DNA of 64,000 nucleotides from Sergeia podlipaevii (taxonomy: Eukaryota > Euglenozoa > Kinetoplastea > Trypanosomatida > Trypanosomatidae), in the NCBI GenBank assembly GCA_030849805.1, contig JASANZ010002273.1, positions 157,761 to 221,760 on the forward strand, in the 5' to 3' direction. Every line of letters starts with the position of its first letter. The stretch's first letter is position 1. The notes under the pieces were generated by a model, which worked only from the letters and a program-made list of their open reading frames with translations, searched no databases and was not told the origin of the DNA. The position numbers were made by a program, and so were the translations under genes. Shown here piece by piece: positions 48,670-61,690 of this stretch.

Positions 48670-49224
48670 ATGGCTCCCAAGAAAAATGAGAGGAAGCCAG
48701 GTCCCCTCGGGACTGTTGGCCCTATCCTCGTCCTTGTTCTTCAGTTCATCAGTCTCTTCTTCATGTGCATAGGCACACCCTATGATGTGTTCAAGCCACG
48801 TCCTGGCCATGAGGGAGTCACTGAAGGACTTTGCTACTCTCTTTGGGGTTCAAAGATATGCGGTGGCTCCCACGCCCACGCTACCCACAATATCTTCTGG
48901 AGTACGTGCGGTGTGTTCGAGGCATCTATGAAGGCCGGCTCCGCATTTGGCATCATCTCCATTGGCTTCATGAGTATCACGATTATGGTCCTGTTTGCGT
49001 ACATTTGCAAAGTTCTTCAGTCCAACATCCCCCTTATTCTTCTCACCTTATTGTCGACTATCACGTCTTGTGTCCCTTGGGCAGTAGTGGCTGGTCTCTA
49101 CCACAACTCTACCTGCGGATACCCCAACTTCAGTGTTCCTTACGAGCTCGCTGCTGGCTTTGCTTTTCTTGTTGTGAGCTTTGGCCTTCAGGTCATCACC
49201 TTTATTCTTATGTGCCTGTCGTAA
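48670..49224 (+). CDS. Amastin-like surface protein
   Basis: 184 residues with four hydrophobic segments (about 15-36, 85-112, 116-142 and 158-183), the layout of amastins, which are trypanosomatid-specific surface glycoproteins. The loop between helices 1 and 2 has the amastin-signature-like CYSLWGSKIC at 55-64. It matches C-[IVLYF]-[TS]-[LF]-[WF]-[GF]-x-[KRQ] but is one residue shorter before the second Cys than the usual eleven-residue signature. It is a single copy here, unlike the tandem arrays common in Leishmania. The first ATG after the AG at 48602-48603 is the start. Confidence 0.87.
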   Translation: MAPKKNERKPGPLGTVGPILVLVLQFISLFFMCIGTPYDVFKPRPGHEGVTEGLCYSLWGSKICGGSHAHATHNIFWSTCGVFEASMKAGSAFGIISIGFMSITIMVLFAYICKVLQSNIPLILLTLLSTITSCVPWAVVAGLYHNSTCGYPNFSVPYELAAGFAFLVVSFGLQVITFILMCLS

Positions 49225-51513
49225 GAAAGGAAGTATATATGTATGAAAGCAGATGGAGAAGAATGACGCCACATTGCTTTGCAGACAAGGAAATTTAGAG
49301 CATATAACGCTAAATTTGGCGTATATAAATGATACGCACCTTCTTTTTTTTTTTTTTTAGTGTGTGTGTCTTTGATTTAGTTCTCTCTCACTCCCCCATC
49401 ACACTCGTATTTTTCTTTTTTTACTATTGAAATGGTGATTTATATATCGCACTCTCTCCTGCTGTACTTCCTTTTTCCGTGCTATCGTTTCCTTACACAA
49501 GTTCACTTTACTCTTCTTGAGTAAGGTGGCACAGTCAGGCACCAAGAAAATGTTGGAGCTGGTGAAACCGAACTAGGTGATTTTGTAAGGAAAGCTGCTG
49601 ACAGGAAACCGAAGAAGTGAGAGAAGAGTACTTCACCTTAATGCAAATATGGGCGGAACAAAATTGTGTGTATTGCGCATGATATTGATCGGGGAAAATT
49701 TATATATATATATATATACATATCGTTATAAGAAGAGGAATTTTAAAAGAAAGAAAGTAAATCATAACAAATAGATTTATCCCCCCTCCCTCATTCCCTG
49801 AACAGTAAAACAAAAAAAAGAAAGAAATCATTCTCTTCTGGGAAAAAAAGGGGGGGGCTAAGGTTTGTACTTTACTGTTATTTTTATTTACTATAAATGA
49901 TGCGATCCATTTTTTCGTTCGAGTATGTGCGTATCGTCTGTATGTCGGCCTTCGTGTGATCGCGTGTGTACACGTATAGGTGGACATTTTTTTTGGAGGG
50001 GGGAGAGGGATGGGATGGGCAGCAGGTAGTTCTGTTCGGTATGGTCAGAGGTATTTCTCTTACGAAAGTCCATCTCTCACTTGTGAGCAAACGGAGCATT
50101 TGCTCAGCCCACTACCGTATTGGAACTATGAACGATTGTTTTGTCTTGGATTATGTTGTTTTCCACAAACTGACTGCGTGAATTTTCTAGCAGCTATCAT
50201 TCGAATATACTGGTACTATTTTCTTTTTTTGGCATGATATTTATGTACATGTTGCCCAACTCGGCTTTCAAAATCAAAGAAAAGGTATGGAAGCATCAAG
50301 TTCGACAAGCAATCAATTAGTTTCAAGTTCCATCGGCTATGAAAACACGTATTGAAGCAGTCAAAGGGAAGGTACTACAAGAGTTACGCACACAAATCTA
50401 TATATATATTTGTTTGTATCGACATGCTTAGGTTTCATTTTTTTTTTTGCTTTGTAAGCTCTGCTCCGCCGTTGTTGTTTTTTTGATCGTGGAACATTCG
50501 CACCAGAATAAGACTTATCTTTGCATAATTTTTATTTTTGTGCCTATGTGCCACCAGTTATCAGGGAACATGTGTTGCAAGTGAGTAAAAAACAGGAAAT
50601 TGAGTGCTGTATTTTTTAGTGTAAGTCAAACTTGTCTTGGTTGCTCTCCATATACAAGCAATAGAATAATGATTTGCGCTCACTGACATACGTGCCTCTT
50701 TTGAAATTTTTTTTTTGCTTGGTGAGTACAGCGTGCATTTTCGTTATACTTGTGAATACACATTGTCTTGAAAGAAGCCACACAGGCACTGCCCAACAGC
50801 GTTCCTTTAAAAGGGCAGAAAAGAAAAGCAGTGACAACATTGCAGACGAACAGGAGACAAGCTGTTTGGCACTTTCGTACGTATTTTAGTTGTTTATTTA
50901 AGTCTTATACATTTTGAAACGAGTGTGTGGGAAATCAGGCTGAGTGTAAATATGTATTTATCTATATATGGATTTATATATAAATATTGTACGATTTGGG
51001 GAAAGGAACTTAAGTGTGTTAAAGATGAGGGAAAATTGTATTACTGTTAAGAGAGGAAAAAGAAAGAAGGAAATACGAGTCAAGTTTGAAAAAAAAGAGA
51101 GTATGGAGGAAGAGGAGTTCAACATTATATAGTGAAAACCATAGCCTATCCCCACAATGCAGCCGCTATCTTCTCTCTTGAATCTGCCCATTTGTGAGCA
51201 CTCACGTGTTCAAAGAAAAAAAAGAGAAGTACAACAATACAATACTATGTAGTTTGTCATGTAGTTGTCATATCTTTTTTTTTTAAATACTCAATAAAGA
51301 GATCGGAGCTTATTATTCCTTCTGAATAGTACTGTATTGCGTGAGGTTGAGGAATCAATAAAGCTTGAATATCTTCCTAGGCAAAGGATATAGTAATGGT
51401 CAAACCCTCCAAGGTTAAAATGACGGTTTATGTCATGTAACTTAAATATATATATTAAGGTCTAAAGGCACAGCGAGAACAGAGACTTTGTATTGTGAAG
51501 CTCAGTTTTAGCT

Positions 51514-51552
51514 GATTCGTGCCGAATCGGTATGCAGCGCGAGTTGCGTACC
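51514..51552 (+). other. Two abutting DNA/RNA hairpins
   Basis: GATTCG (51514-51519) and CGAATC (51523-51528) form a six-base stem with a three-base loop. Directly after it, GGTATGCA (51529-51536) pairs with TGCGTACC (51545-51552), one G-T pair, eight-base loop. The function is unknown; it could be a small RNA element or chance. Confidence 0.3.
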
Positions 51553-52669
51553 ATTACGCATTTTGGCTTATGTGTTTGGCGGCAGTGTGTTTGTCAATAT
51601 AGTGAGTGAAAACTCCATAGAAAGCCTCTTTTGAAGCCAGTTCTGTCTTTTCTATGCACTTATATGTTCTCTTGTTATGCCTCTCCCTATTTTATATTGC
51701 AACTTTTTTATTTTTTTTACTCTGCAGTGCTTATATATATATTTTTTTTCATGTTGTGCACCACCTTGCTGTTAGCATTTAGGAAGCGGCTTTGGGGTCC
51801 CGCCCTTTGCCGATATGTTGCATAATAGAAGCCCAGGTAAAGCGTACATCTTTTCATGATAAAACGTCAAAAATTAGGTTGCGCCTTAACAATGCGTATA
51901 CTCATACTATTGTGCGAAACATTGTTCAAGTTACTGTCGGAGCAGGGACCCCTCTATACTTCATCACTTGACAATATGCTTGCTCAGAATTTAGTATTGG
52001 CCAAATTCAAAGCTTATACGACTACATCTCTAATGCGAGTAGAATGGCTAGCTGTGCCTTGTGCAGAGTGTGGCTATGGATTTTGACGCTTTACTATTGG
52101 AGAAACATTAGAGCGTGATGTGGCTCGAGTCGGCCATTCATAAATGTTTTTTTCATATACATTTATAAACGCATTCTATGTTGCCATCCGCTTACTATGG
52201 GAGCGTAGCAACGTATTCCTTTATTCACAGTTGTGTGGCTTGACGCAAGCAGTACAGGTCTATTGGTCACTGTGATTTTATGTATAGCGGCGCTGTGATC
52301 GTATCTAGCACGATCTTGGGGCTATGCAGCTGTCCGATATAAGAAGTTGCGGATTACTACTCATTTTCTTTGGATATTCACTACTTGATTAGTAAGAAGG
52401 CATTGCCGAAATCTGAAATGTGAGACTGTAAATTGTTTGCTGGTGTGATTGCCGGGGATACTATTTGGCCTTTACACTTTTACCTATCATTTGAGCTATA
52501 CTCTCAGACAGACCACATTATTGTAATTGTTTGGTGGCATCTCGGGGTAATGACGTGCACCATTGGCATCTAAATGAACTTGTGTTTATCTCATCATTTT
52601 GGTGTTCCGCCAACATTGTACTTGCAAAACTTTTTTTGGTTTCTTTTCAAAAGGCGCAATTATATGTCC

Positions 52670-52711
52670 ATTTTTTATCTTTTATTATTATTTTGATTTT
52701 GTCTTTAAAAG
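52670..52711 (+). promoter_or_regulatory. Candidate spliced-leader acceptor for the phosphofructokinase
   Basis: Pyrimidine-rich tract followed by AG at 52710-52711. The next in-frame ATG is 52834, and no in-frame ATG occurs in the open frame upstream of it. Confidence 0.45.
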
Positions 52712-52833
52712 CATTCACATTAGTATCGCACATTCTCAAGCGTAAAATCTTGTTGTTAGAGAACAAGTACGAGTCTTATATTATTCAGATTCAAAATCTG
52801 CTTCACCAACTACGAGAAGGAAAGGGGACGAAA

Positions 52834-54078
52834 ATGAAGGACCTTGTTGGTGCCTGCGTGTTTGGCCAGTCTGGGGGTCCCACTTCTGTCATCAACGCCA
52901 GCGCTGCTGCAGTTTTCATCGAAGCACTGCAGCAGAAGAATATTACAAAAGTCTACGGTGCTGCTTATGGTATTGAAGGCATCATGAAGGAGAGACTATA
53001 TGACATGTCTATGGAAAGCCCTGAGGAGCTATCCCTCTTAAAGCACACCCCGTCTTCAGCGCTTGGATCGGTGAGGTACAAGATTAAGAAGGAAGAAGAA
53101 TTAAGCCGCATCATGGAGGTTTTCAAAAAATACAACATTCGTTACTTCTTCTACAACGGCGGCAATGACAGCATGGACACGTGCAACAAGGTGAGCAAGT
53201 ATCTTCTGAAAAATGGATACAAGTGCAACGTAGTTGGCATCCCAAAGACGATCGACAACGACCTTGTTGGGACAGACCACTGTCCTGGGTACGGCAGCGC
53301 GGCGAAGTTTGTGGCAGCTTCTGTGATGAACATGTACCTTGATGCCACTGTGTACCGCAACGGACAAGTGACCATTGTCGAGGTCATGGGCCGTGATGCA
53401 GGGTGGCTTACGGCGGCAAGCTACCTTGCGACTCTTAAGGGCTGCGGTCCTCACCTGATTTATGTCCCTGAGCAGACATTTGACCCTGCCAAGTTTGTGA
53501 CTCAAGTAAGGGAGGAGGTGCGCAAGAATGCCGGCTCGTGTTTCGTTGTCGCCAGTGAAGGTCTGCGCCTCGCCAACGGTAAACTTCTTTCCGCTCAGCC
53601 GGCCATGGCACATGACAAGTTTGGCCACGCTCAGCTGGGTGGACTTGCTGCCGCGCTTGAGGCCATTGTGAAGAATGCCCTGCCGACAATCAAGGCCCGC
53701 AGCATTGAACTTAACATACTTCAGCGATGCACAGCGTTTTGCGCGAGTGCGAGAGATGTTGAGGAAGCGTTTGAAGTTGGTCGGTTCGCCGTTCGCAGTG
53801 CGTGTGCTGGCGCAACAGATAAGATGGCGGCTCTTCAGCGATCCAAAGACGGCCCTTACAAGCCATCCTTTGTGCTTACCAACATTGAGGTGTGTGCAAA
53901 CGCTGTAAAGGCGATTCCAGAGTCTTGGATTCTTCCTGACAATAAGGGCTTCACTCAAGAGTTTGTCGACTATGCTCTTCCGCTGATTCAGGGCGAGCCT
54001 AGCGTACCATTTGAAGATGGTCTTCCTAGGTTTGCCAAGCTGAAGAAAGTTGCTGCTGCAGCACCTTCTTCTTTATAA
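52834..54078 (+). CDS. Bacterial-type phosphofructokinase, pyrophosphate-type signature, probable glycosomal
   Basis: 414 residues from ATG 52834; the frame is open upstream but contains no earlier ATG. It phosphorylates fructose 6-phosphate. The nucleotide-loop start is GQSGGPTSVINAS (11-23), the phosphate-donor site is NGGNDSMDT (108-116), the catalytic PKTIDND is at 137-143 and MGRDAG at 185-190. The residue equal to Gly104 of the E. coli ATP enzyme is Asp112 and that equal to Gly124 is Lys138, the combination typical of pyrophosphate-dependent enzymes. The usual trypanosomatid ATP enzyme has GGDGT and is about 480 residues, so this is a different lineage, close in motif style to clostridial and spirochaetal enzymes. 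It ends in SSL, the same glycosomal PTS1 found on T. brucei glycosomal PGK. Lateral acquisition with later addition of the targeting tail is inferred. Confidence 0.9.
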   Translation: MKDLVGACVFGQSGGPTSVINASAAAVFIEALQQKNITKVYGAAYGIEGIMKERLYDMSMESPEELSLLKHTPSSALGSVRYKIKKEEELSRIMEVFKKYNIRYFFYNGGNDSMDTCNKVSKYLLKNGYKCNVVGIPKTIDNDLVGTDHCPGYGSAAKFVAASVMNMYLDATVYRNGQVTIVEVMGRDAGWLTAASYLATLKGCGPHLIYVPEQTFDPAKFVTQVREEVRKNAGSCFVVASEGLRLANGKLLSAQPAMAHDKFGHAQLGGLAAALEAIVKNALPTIKARSIELNILQRCTAFCASARDVEEAFEVGRFAVRSACAGATDKMAALQRSKDGPYKPSFVLTNIEVCANAVKAIPESWILPDNKGFTQEFVDYALPLIQGEPSVPFEDGLPRFAKLKKVAAAAPSSL

Positions 54079-54963: not shown

Positions 54964-55653
54964 ATGGATTTTTTCCAAATTATTGATGTTTGTGCAGACG
55001 CACCGTCAATCTTTTTTGCCATAGTGGAAGTAGCTCTGGCTACTATCTTCTCCATCGCATTAGGACTTGCTGTGCAGTTTCTCCCCTCGCTCCTCCTTGT
55101 ACGCTCGAGTGCTCGTCCATCAGTGCAGCGTCACAAAGGGTCTACACATAAATCCGCTGAGCCGCGTAAGGCTCCTGCATCATTGCCTACAGCTAGTAAG
55201 CCAAAGCCACTAGTTAGCACGCAAGATCATGAACAAAAGTCTACTGACGATTTATGTGCGGCACCACACAACAGCCACCACATCGCTGATAGAACTTTGG
55301 ACGCAGTGCTCGACGACTTTTTTGAAAATGAAACGTTGCTTGACGACGCCCTGCTTGAGACAGTAGCGCAGCGCTCTGTTTCTCCCCCTGGTGCTCCTGC
55401 CCACGAAGCCCCACCATCTGATTCTGCAAAAGACTTTGATGCGGAACTCGCAAAGCGTATGGGGCGGGGTTTCATTTCAAAAGGTGGACATATCCCAAAG
55501 AAGCAACCGCCAAGGGTTACTAAACCATCGACACCACAGATTGATGACGTGCTTGAGAACGTTCTTTCAGCATATATGGATGAGGAGGAATTACTGGACG
55601 CCGCGCTTCTTGATACTGCCTTGCAGTCTGCGAATGTTGCTGAGAAGCCATAG
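54964..55653 (+). CDS. Membrane-anchored protein with a duplicated acidic motif
   Basis: 229 residues of unknown family. Residues 14-46 form one hydrophobic segment followed by a basic stretch (SSARPSVQRHK), suggesting an N-terminal membrane anchor or signal-anchor. The rest is hydrophilic and partly low complexity, and contains two related acidic helical motifs: TLDAVLDDFFENETLLDDALLE near 111-132 and QIDDVLENVLSAYMDEEELLDAAL near 192-215. The repeat looks like a duplicated binding segment. Function is unknown. Confidence 0.65.
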   Translation: MDFFQIIDVCADAPSIFFAIVEVALATIFSIALGLAVQFLPSLLLVRSSARPSVQRHKGSTHKSAEPRKAPASLPTASKPKPLVSTQDHEQKSTDDLCAAPHNSHHIADRTLDAVLDDFFENETLLDDALLETVAQRSVSPPGAPAHEAPPSDSAKDFDAELAKRMGRGFISKGGHIPKKQPPRVTKPSTPQIDDVLENVLSAYMDEEELLDAALLDTALQSANVAEKP

Positions 55654-60964: not shown

Positions 60965-61690
60965 ATGTCAGTAGGCAGCAAGGAGGCCACTTTATTCTCA
61001 TTGTACAAAATCGGTATGTGGGAATGTTTTCTCCTTGAAAGATACACAACTGTTTGGGATTTACAGCAGCAGTGTGTTGCTGAGTTGCCAGTTGCATCCA
61101 TCACAAAGTACACCGTTGGCAGCACTGAAACGGGCGACACGGACGGGGTCTCGTTTGACGACGAGCGTAGCAGTAAAAGGAGCGCGGACGCTTTTTATCC
61201 CGGAACTGGCCATGCCGAGCGCGTCGGTGGTGAGGACGTTGATGCAGCTCGCGGCACAAACATAAACATTCCTTGGCCCACTCATCACTTTGGCGATATT
61301 GAGTACCTCCAGGTGCTGACGGAACTTGTTATTCCCGTGGCACAGGAGTTTGCGCCAGAGGTGGTAATTATCAGCTGTGGCTTTGATAGTGCGCAAGGCG
61401 ACTTGCTAGGCTCCATGAACTTAACCCCGTCGGGGTACTATCTCATGACAAAGCTGCTTTGCAAGCACTTTTCCAAGGTGGTGGTGGTCCTCGAGGGAGG
61501 GTATCACGTCGCCAACGTTACCAAATGCTCGGAGACAGTTCTCCGTGCACTACTTGAAGTTTCGGCTGAGGCAGCAGCGCAACCACTACCGTTCACCCGC
61601 ATGCTTTATGCGCAGACACAGCGCTTGGTCGCGCGGGTAAAGCATCAGCACTTGGAGTACTGGCGTTGCTACCGCAGCGATTCACAGTAA
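60965..61690 (+). pseudogene. Histone deacetylase, C-terminal half only
   Basis: 241 residues are open from ATG 60965. From about residue 72 the sequence matches the C-terminal half of class II-type histone deacetylases: FYPGTGHAERVG, then NINIPW, FAPEVVIISCGFDSAQGD with the zinc-ligand Asp, and VVVVLEGGYHVANV with the catalytic Tyr. The N-terminal catalytic half, with the tandem His charge relay and the DxH zinc ligands, is absent. The first 70 residues are unrelated. It therefore cannot be an active deacetylase as it stands and is most likely a pseudogene fragment, though an expressed truncated protein cannot be excluded. Confidence 0.78.

Follow-up and report, generated by a model that had tools for sequence, protein, structure and literature searches.

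A clostridial-type, probably pyrophosphate-dependent and putatively glycosomal phosphofructokinase in the trypanosomatid Sergeia podlipaevii

Trypanosomatids carry out the phosphofructokinase (PFK) step with an ATP-dependent enzyme, exemplified by that of T. brucei (2hig/3f5m). Going by the accessible text of the papers cited here, the ATP spent in the glycosome by hexokinase and PFK is restored within the organelle by PGK, PEPCK and PPDK (PMC7082770), and ATP used in the glycosome must be regenerated in the glycosome (PMC12121924). PPDK bearing a PTS1 was present in all kinetoplastids analysed in one study (PMC9512073). The same study describes in Diplonema papillatum a PTS1-bearing, pyrophosphate (PPi)-dependent PFK of the 'Long' clade, DpPFK1, which it attributes to transfer, and it names the drivers of ATP- versus PPi-dependence among glycosomal PFKs as an outstanding question. 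PPi-PFKs have been linked to the control of PPi levels elsewhere. In Toxoplasma, depletion of the enzyme raised PPi, and growth was partly rescued by a pyrophosphatase (PMC8836295), and in Acetivibrio deletion of the PPi-PFK gene succeeded only if a pyrophosphatase was provided (PMC12203962). For trypanosomatids themselves, the available part of a 2025 paper holds that a PPi-dependent glycosomal PFK was probably never present in their ancestor. Literature on PPi-PFK or phosphofructokinase in trypanosomatids, T. theileri and Vickermania, in the parts accessible here, reports no such enzyme; supplements, subscription papers and the remaining text could hold one.

The gene described here lies in a window of 64,000 nucleotides (the whole stretch of DNA analysed), which forms the final part of a 221,760-base contig in a genome assembly of 23.39 Mb and 576 contigs. 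Judged by its sequence, the protein itself belongs to a bacterial family that is already known. It resembles the NF010675/PRK14072 PPi-PFKs (Clostridia; 3k2q, 3hno) in length, in its GGxD motif and in full-length identity (59-65% among the matches listed), but is encoded by a trypanosomatid, ends in SSL, and has a four-residue deletion and 19 positions absent in all 127 relatives compared. With the trypanosomatid ATP-PFKs, including that of the same genome, it shares the reaction step and the PFK fold; it is set apart from them by an identity of 24%, by the length and motif of the ATP enzyme and by a fully supported split in the tree. Like DpPFK1, as the accessible text describes that enzyme, it is probably a PTS1-tagged PPi-PFK that a euglenozoan with glycosomes acquired laterally; unlike DpPFK1, which is probably of two subunits and ends in PKL, it is of the short type, ends in SSL and stands beside a retained native ATP-PFK. 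On published description, again as accessible, it further resembles the Toxoplasma (PMC8836295) and Acetivibrio (PMC12203962) enzymes in occurring beside an ATP-PFK and in its likely bearing on PPi homeostasis, although those enzymes are not glycosomal. It would also resemble glycosomal PPDK in coupling PPi use to the ATP economy of the organelle, although PPDK is an unrelated protein and was not found in the assembly.

The novelty lies in the setting: this trypanosomatid combines its native ATP-PFK with a clostridial-type PPi-PFK whose putative glycosomal tag is conserved, and no PPDK was found in its assembly. With both PFKs present and PPDK apparently missing, the question of what drives the choice of phosphate donor becomes testable in one cell. 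If the reading set out below is true, bacterial enzymes are shown to have entered core glycosomal carbon metabolism within the Trypanosomatidae.

The protein and its phosphate donor

The open reading frame is real and complete. It begins at the first in-frame ATG after an upstream stop at 52492, a start that agrees with the N-terminal MKNLVGAC of the bacterial relatives in the alignment, and translation confirmed the 414 residues, the two active-site motifs and the terminal SSL that the initial annotation had reported (Table 1).

Table 1. Positions of the features discussed, in window coordinates unless a contig is named
Feature	Position	Strand	Basis
PPi-type phosphofructokinase CDS, 414 aa plus stop	52834..54078	+	translation; whole-length match to NF010675 proteins
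NGGNDSMDT motif, residues 108-116	53155..53181	+	translation; 34-row alignment
Asp112, in place of the Gly of ATP-PFKs	53167-53169	+	translation; alignment
PKTIDND, residues 137-143	53242..53262	+	translation
Lys138 within PKTIDND	53245-53247	+	translation; not donor-diagnostic here
C-terminal SSL, putative PTS1 glycosomal signal	54067..54075	+	translation; relatives; T. brucei PGK tail
Amastin gene, upstream neighbour	48670..49224	+	PF07344, 94.2 bits
229-aa ORF, downstream neighbour	54964..55653	+	no Pfam match
Histone-deacetylase-like ORF	60965-61690		profile positions 176-298 of 298 only
GAPDH search matches	C458:22004-22477 and C575:96866-97360		profile search

The protein matches the Pfam PFK domain and passes the NCBIfam model NF010675 (diphosphate-F6P phosphotransferase) with 522.4 bits, the cut-off being 273. 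It scores 59.9 bits, below the cut-off of 587.95, with TIGR02477 (PFKA_PPi, 539 positions), which we take to be the model of the long-type PPi-PFKs. Its best solved relatives by sequence are the PPi-PFK entries 3k2q (Marinobacter) and 3hno (Nitrosospira). The same two were the best folds for a structure model (TM 0.77-0.80, the listed T. brucei PFK chains giving TM 0.63-0.68), although this model was built from nine sequences only, has a mean pLDDT of 77.6 and adds little beyond sequence. An antisense open frame of 285 aa with a TTG start also lies inside the gene (53101-53958, minus strand) and is in all likelihood a side effect of codon usage.

The initial annotation had read Asp112 and Lys138 as a pair of marks of a PPi-dependent enzyme, and the accessible text of a 2025 review lists Asp and Lys in the same way (PMC12203962). 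The aspartate stood up to comparison. In a 34-row PFK alignment this site is Asp in all 17 rows of the NF010675 family and Gly in all 17 of the other clade, made up of the kinetoplastid ATP-PFKs together with three bacterial rows and a single euglenid. It is a strong but imperfect guide to the donor, because one bacterial row of the other clade (P0229) has Gly at the site although its source labels it a PPi enzyme. The lysine did not stand. Every one of the 34 rows has it, whichever group the row belongs to, as do 250 of 251 proteins compared, and because the ATP-PFK clade carries it as well (17/17) it does not mark PPi against ATP here and was dropped; as judged from these sequences, the lysine half of the review's signature fails to discriminate for kinetoplastid ATP-PFKs. 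The residue before Asp112 is Asn, giving GGND, and the Asn-Asp pair occurs in 17 of the 17 NF010675-family rows. The textbook motif of PPi-PFKs is GGDD, and 3k2q and 3hno carry GGGD at the corresponding position. From these features of the sequence we infer that PPi, rather than ATP, is the donor of the 414-residue enzyme.

Relatives and bacterial origin

A word-based search of 5.8 billion proteins, in which 8,000 candidates were scored and the best 120 listed, gave as the closest among the matches listed two unannotated proteins, P0002 (73% identity) and P0003 (66%), which come from contigs of 6,146 and 1,775 bases and both of which end in SSL; among the same matches they are followed by sequences at 65% identity and below. 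An organism is named for seven of 127 relatives, every one belonging to Clostridia or Clostridiales, and the unnamed remainder is taken as bacterial from its position among Clostridia.

A first tree of 52 rows combined the three SSL proteins, 42 of the 127 relatives (thinned at 90% identity) and seven other bacterial rows. As named outgroups, six plasmid records (H1, H3 and H5-H8) were taken from 30 listed of 73 matching, while H2 (a Legionella record), H4 and others were left out; a single-protein scan of genome contigs gave two confirmed loci, the one at 53% being used and the one at 24% dropped. The SSL proteins were monophyletic (100/100) on a stem of 0.67 and fell inside a 40-row node (97/93), their exact sister being weakly placed (90/74); long outgroup branches and the odd composition of P0003 bear on the reading of this tree. 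In a second tree of 34 rows, 17 chosen from the NF010675 family and 17 from the other clade, the group holding the SSL proteins was split from the kinetoplastid ATP-PFKs at 100/100. Thus the phylogeny against PPi- and ATP-PFKs that the initial annotation had called for did not place the protein inside the trypanosomatid ATP-PFK clade, and membership there is rejected on this split together with the length of 414 aa and the GGNDS motif. The lateral bacterial origin first suggested for the gene is supported by its nesting among bacterial sequences, those of Clostridia included, far outside that clade.

The three SSL proteins, which diverge pairwise by 27-34%, have in common the four-residue deletion and the 19 positions, four of which lie where the relatives are mostly gapped. 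The tail and the tree together suggest that P0002 and P0003 likewise come from trypanosomatids. One transfer from a Clostridia-like bacterium, followed by vertical descent with the tail kept, would be the best explanation of this pattern. Since the grouping is supported at 100/100 and the deletion and residues are shared, independent transfers into three lineages are unlikely. No named trypanosomatid was among the 120 best matches listed for the 414-aa protein, although the same database holds named trypanosomatid ATP-PFKs (Angomonas, Leishmania, Phytomonas and several Trypanosoma), and so the PPi-PFK seems to be patchily distributed, as far as a word-based search with 8,000 candidates scored and the 120 best listed can tell.

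The genome was also searched for the standard ATP-PFK, which is present. A genome-wide Pfam PFK search found two genes, the one described here and one on contig C138, whose product (P0122) is an ATP-type enzyme of 486 aa with GGDGT, in keeping with the motif and the length of about 480 residues that had been given for the trypanosomatid ATP enzyme. P0122 is 82% identical to the proteins of Angomonas deanei and Leishmania naiffi and 76% to that of Trypanosoma theileri, and in the second tree it groups with A. deanei, L. naiffi and Phytomonas (94/89), which places the host among the trypanosomatids other than Trypanosoma. Its SKV ending is found in the Leishmania protein too, and it is assumed from its orthologues to be glycosomal. 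With P0122 in the genome, the suggestion that the PPi-PFK might work alone does not hold.

The glycosomal signal and the proposed role

The SSL tail is present in the 414-aa protein (P0001), P0002 and P0003 and in none of the 127 other relatives. By composition the chance of SSL is about 6.5e-4, and that of any permissive PTS1, under a pattern of our own definition, about 2.4%. P0003 has a longer tail that agrees with the others in its last three residues only, as would be expected if those three residues are under selection. SSL is the tail that T. brucei PGK uses for glycosomal import, and the accessible text of PMC8262884 bears out the initial identification of it as the PTS1 of that enzyme; its conservation in three proteins, against 0 of 127 relatives, likewise favours a PTS1 on a bacterial-type PFK. 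PTS searches in T. brucei have a sensitivity below 40% and a specificity below 50%, according to the available part of PMC9512073. The tail is a signal and not a proof of import, and points to a location that is probably glycosomal.

In the reading preferred here, to which we give a probability of about 0.6, the protein is a clostridial-type glycosomal PPi-PFK, acquired once and working mainly in the forward direction, which removes PPi, saves ATP and partly replaces PPDK; import, forward direction and the substitution for PPDK are what we infer. An ancestor of several trypanosomatids would have taken the gene once from a Clostridia-like bacterium, and the enzyme would have gained, and then kept, its SSL PTS1 and come to operate beside the native ATP-PFK. 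PPi is released inside glycosomes by nucleotide-sugar synthesis and phosphoribosyl transfer. The enzyme would there convert F6P and PPi to F1,6BP and Pi, so that an inhibitory by-product is removed and one ATP per hexose is spared where ATP must balance internally, and it would probably have assumed part of the task of turning PPi into ATP that falls to PPDK in other kinetoplastids. Several glycosomal enzymes are inhibited by PPi, as the accessible text of PMC7005584 has it, and the facts of glycosomal ATP and PPi, taken with the PPi sinks of Toxoplasma and Acetivibrio, favour by analogy a forward, PPi-consuming role. Against a sink stands the presence of two soluble pyrophosphatases in the genome, which give PPi other exits; furthermore, PPi may cross the glycosomal membrane, as far as the available text of PMC7005584 and PMC7082770 goes, which weakens the case for a strictly local sink.

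The initial annotation had allowed that the enzyme might act beside PPDK, which the assembly does not show. PPDK was not found in the genome assembly by the profiles PF01326, PF02896 and TIGR01828, which matched 13/14, 14/14 and 14/14 control genomes, respectively, TIGR01828 being over its cut-off in four. As a check of completeness, a search for the proteasome family found 15 matches, each at a separate place in the genome, the expected count being 14 subunits and HslV. The membrane H+-pyrophosphatase (PF03030) was not found in the genome either, which may reflect loss or an assembly gap, and the GAPDH search of the genome brought up two proteins only, one of 333 aa that lacks a PTS1 and a divergent GAPDH-like one of 353 aa, and none with a glycosomal PTS1 tail. 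The missing glycosomal GAPDH may have been a tandem array that the assembly failed to retain, and the assembly may miss genes, tandem ones above all. As the H+-pyrophosphatase and the PTS1-bearing GAPDH are also missing, the failure to find PPDK could likewise be due to an incomplete assembly, and its absence is suggestive, not proven. The bolder form of the preferred reading, in which a clostridial PPi-PFK replaced PPDK in one lineage and glycosomal glycolysis became able to use PPi at the PFK step, with the ATP-PFK as a second gear, as an independent counterpart of the diplonemid solution, can only be put forward tentatively.

Among other enzymes searched for, the genome encodes a PGK that ends in PKL and has an N-terminal extension, read by eye as PAS. 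A PGK-like protein of 841 aa (C573:117644-119248) has inserts and a long C-terminal extension, by eye a putative cyclic-nucleotide-binding region.

It is unlikely, though deserving of consideration, that a glycosomal PPi-PFK runs chiefly in the reverse direction (F1,6BP + Pi to F6P + PPi) and offers gluconeogenesis a second exit, conserving the bond that FBPase wastes, a use that would suit trypanosomatids of the insect gut, which may be short of glucose. PPi-PFKs are reversible and the T. brucei ATP-PFK itself contributes to gluconeogenesis, according to the accessible text of PMC12121924. However, an FBPase ending in SKL is present in the genome, so that the reverse reaction is unneeded for gluconeogenesis, and no PPDK was found in the assembly to use the PPi produced. 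A cytosolic enzyme, its SSL weak or masked, which serves the PPi balance of the cytosol, is improbable: the limited specificity of PTS searches in T. brucei, as the available text of PMC9512073 reports it, speaks for this, but the tail is kept in three proteins that are 27-34% divergent, even though that of P0003 differs in length and in its preceding residues, and relatives outside the three are without it. Very little probability attaches to sedoheptulose 7-phosphate as the main substrate (the SBP pathway), as in cellulolytic clostridia. Two clostridial PPi-PFKs are only four- to six-fold less efficient on it than on F6P in the accessible text of PMC12203962, and no separate SBPase was found in the genome, as the FBPase is the sole PF00316 match; a transaldolase is present in the genome, however, so that a bypass is not required, and the replacement of transaldolase is weakened as the main reason for keeping the enzyme.

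The locus and the integrity of the assembly

The window holds no N bases. The PFK gene sits in a region with few genes (about 49.2-56.8 kb), some 10 kb from the end of the contig. Upstream, at a distance of 3.6 kb, is an amastin gene, of a family known from trypanosomatids; the histone-deacetylase-like ORF, 6.9 kb downstream, represents a fragment or a pseudogene, or else its start was wrongly called. The GC content of the PFK gene (0.513) and its GC3 (0.553) are within the range of the ORFs of the window. Its codon score is -1.109, those of 11 host genes in the window being -1.277 to -1.016. Codon usage was nonetheless dropped as a test of integration, because two bacterial relatives (-1.24 and -1.129) also score within the host range.

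That the gene is bacterial and stands on a chimeric contig through contamination or misassembly is the least probable explanation of all, since the identity of 65% to bacterial-type sequences, the position in a gene-poor stretch near the contig end and the host-like codon scores of bacterial relatives, which leave codon usage unable to exclude it, are set against a gap-free window with amastin upstream and against an SSL tail, a shared deletion and a 100/100 grouping that are unexpected in a bacterial contaminant. The misjoined bacterial contig against which the initial annotation had cautioned has left no sign in the sequence, with the amastin gene on one side and the histone-deacetylase-like ORF on the other. 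Elsewhere in the window lie genes for SDA1, ZPR1, otubain and an ion channel. The interval between the amastin and PFK genes (about 49200-52800) is AT-rich and gene-poor.
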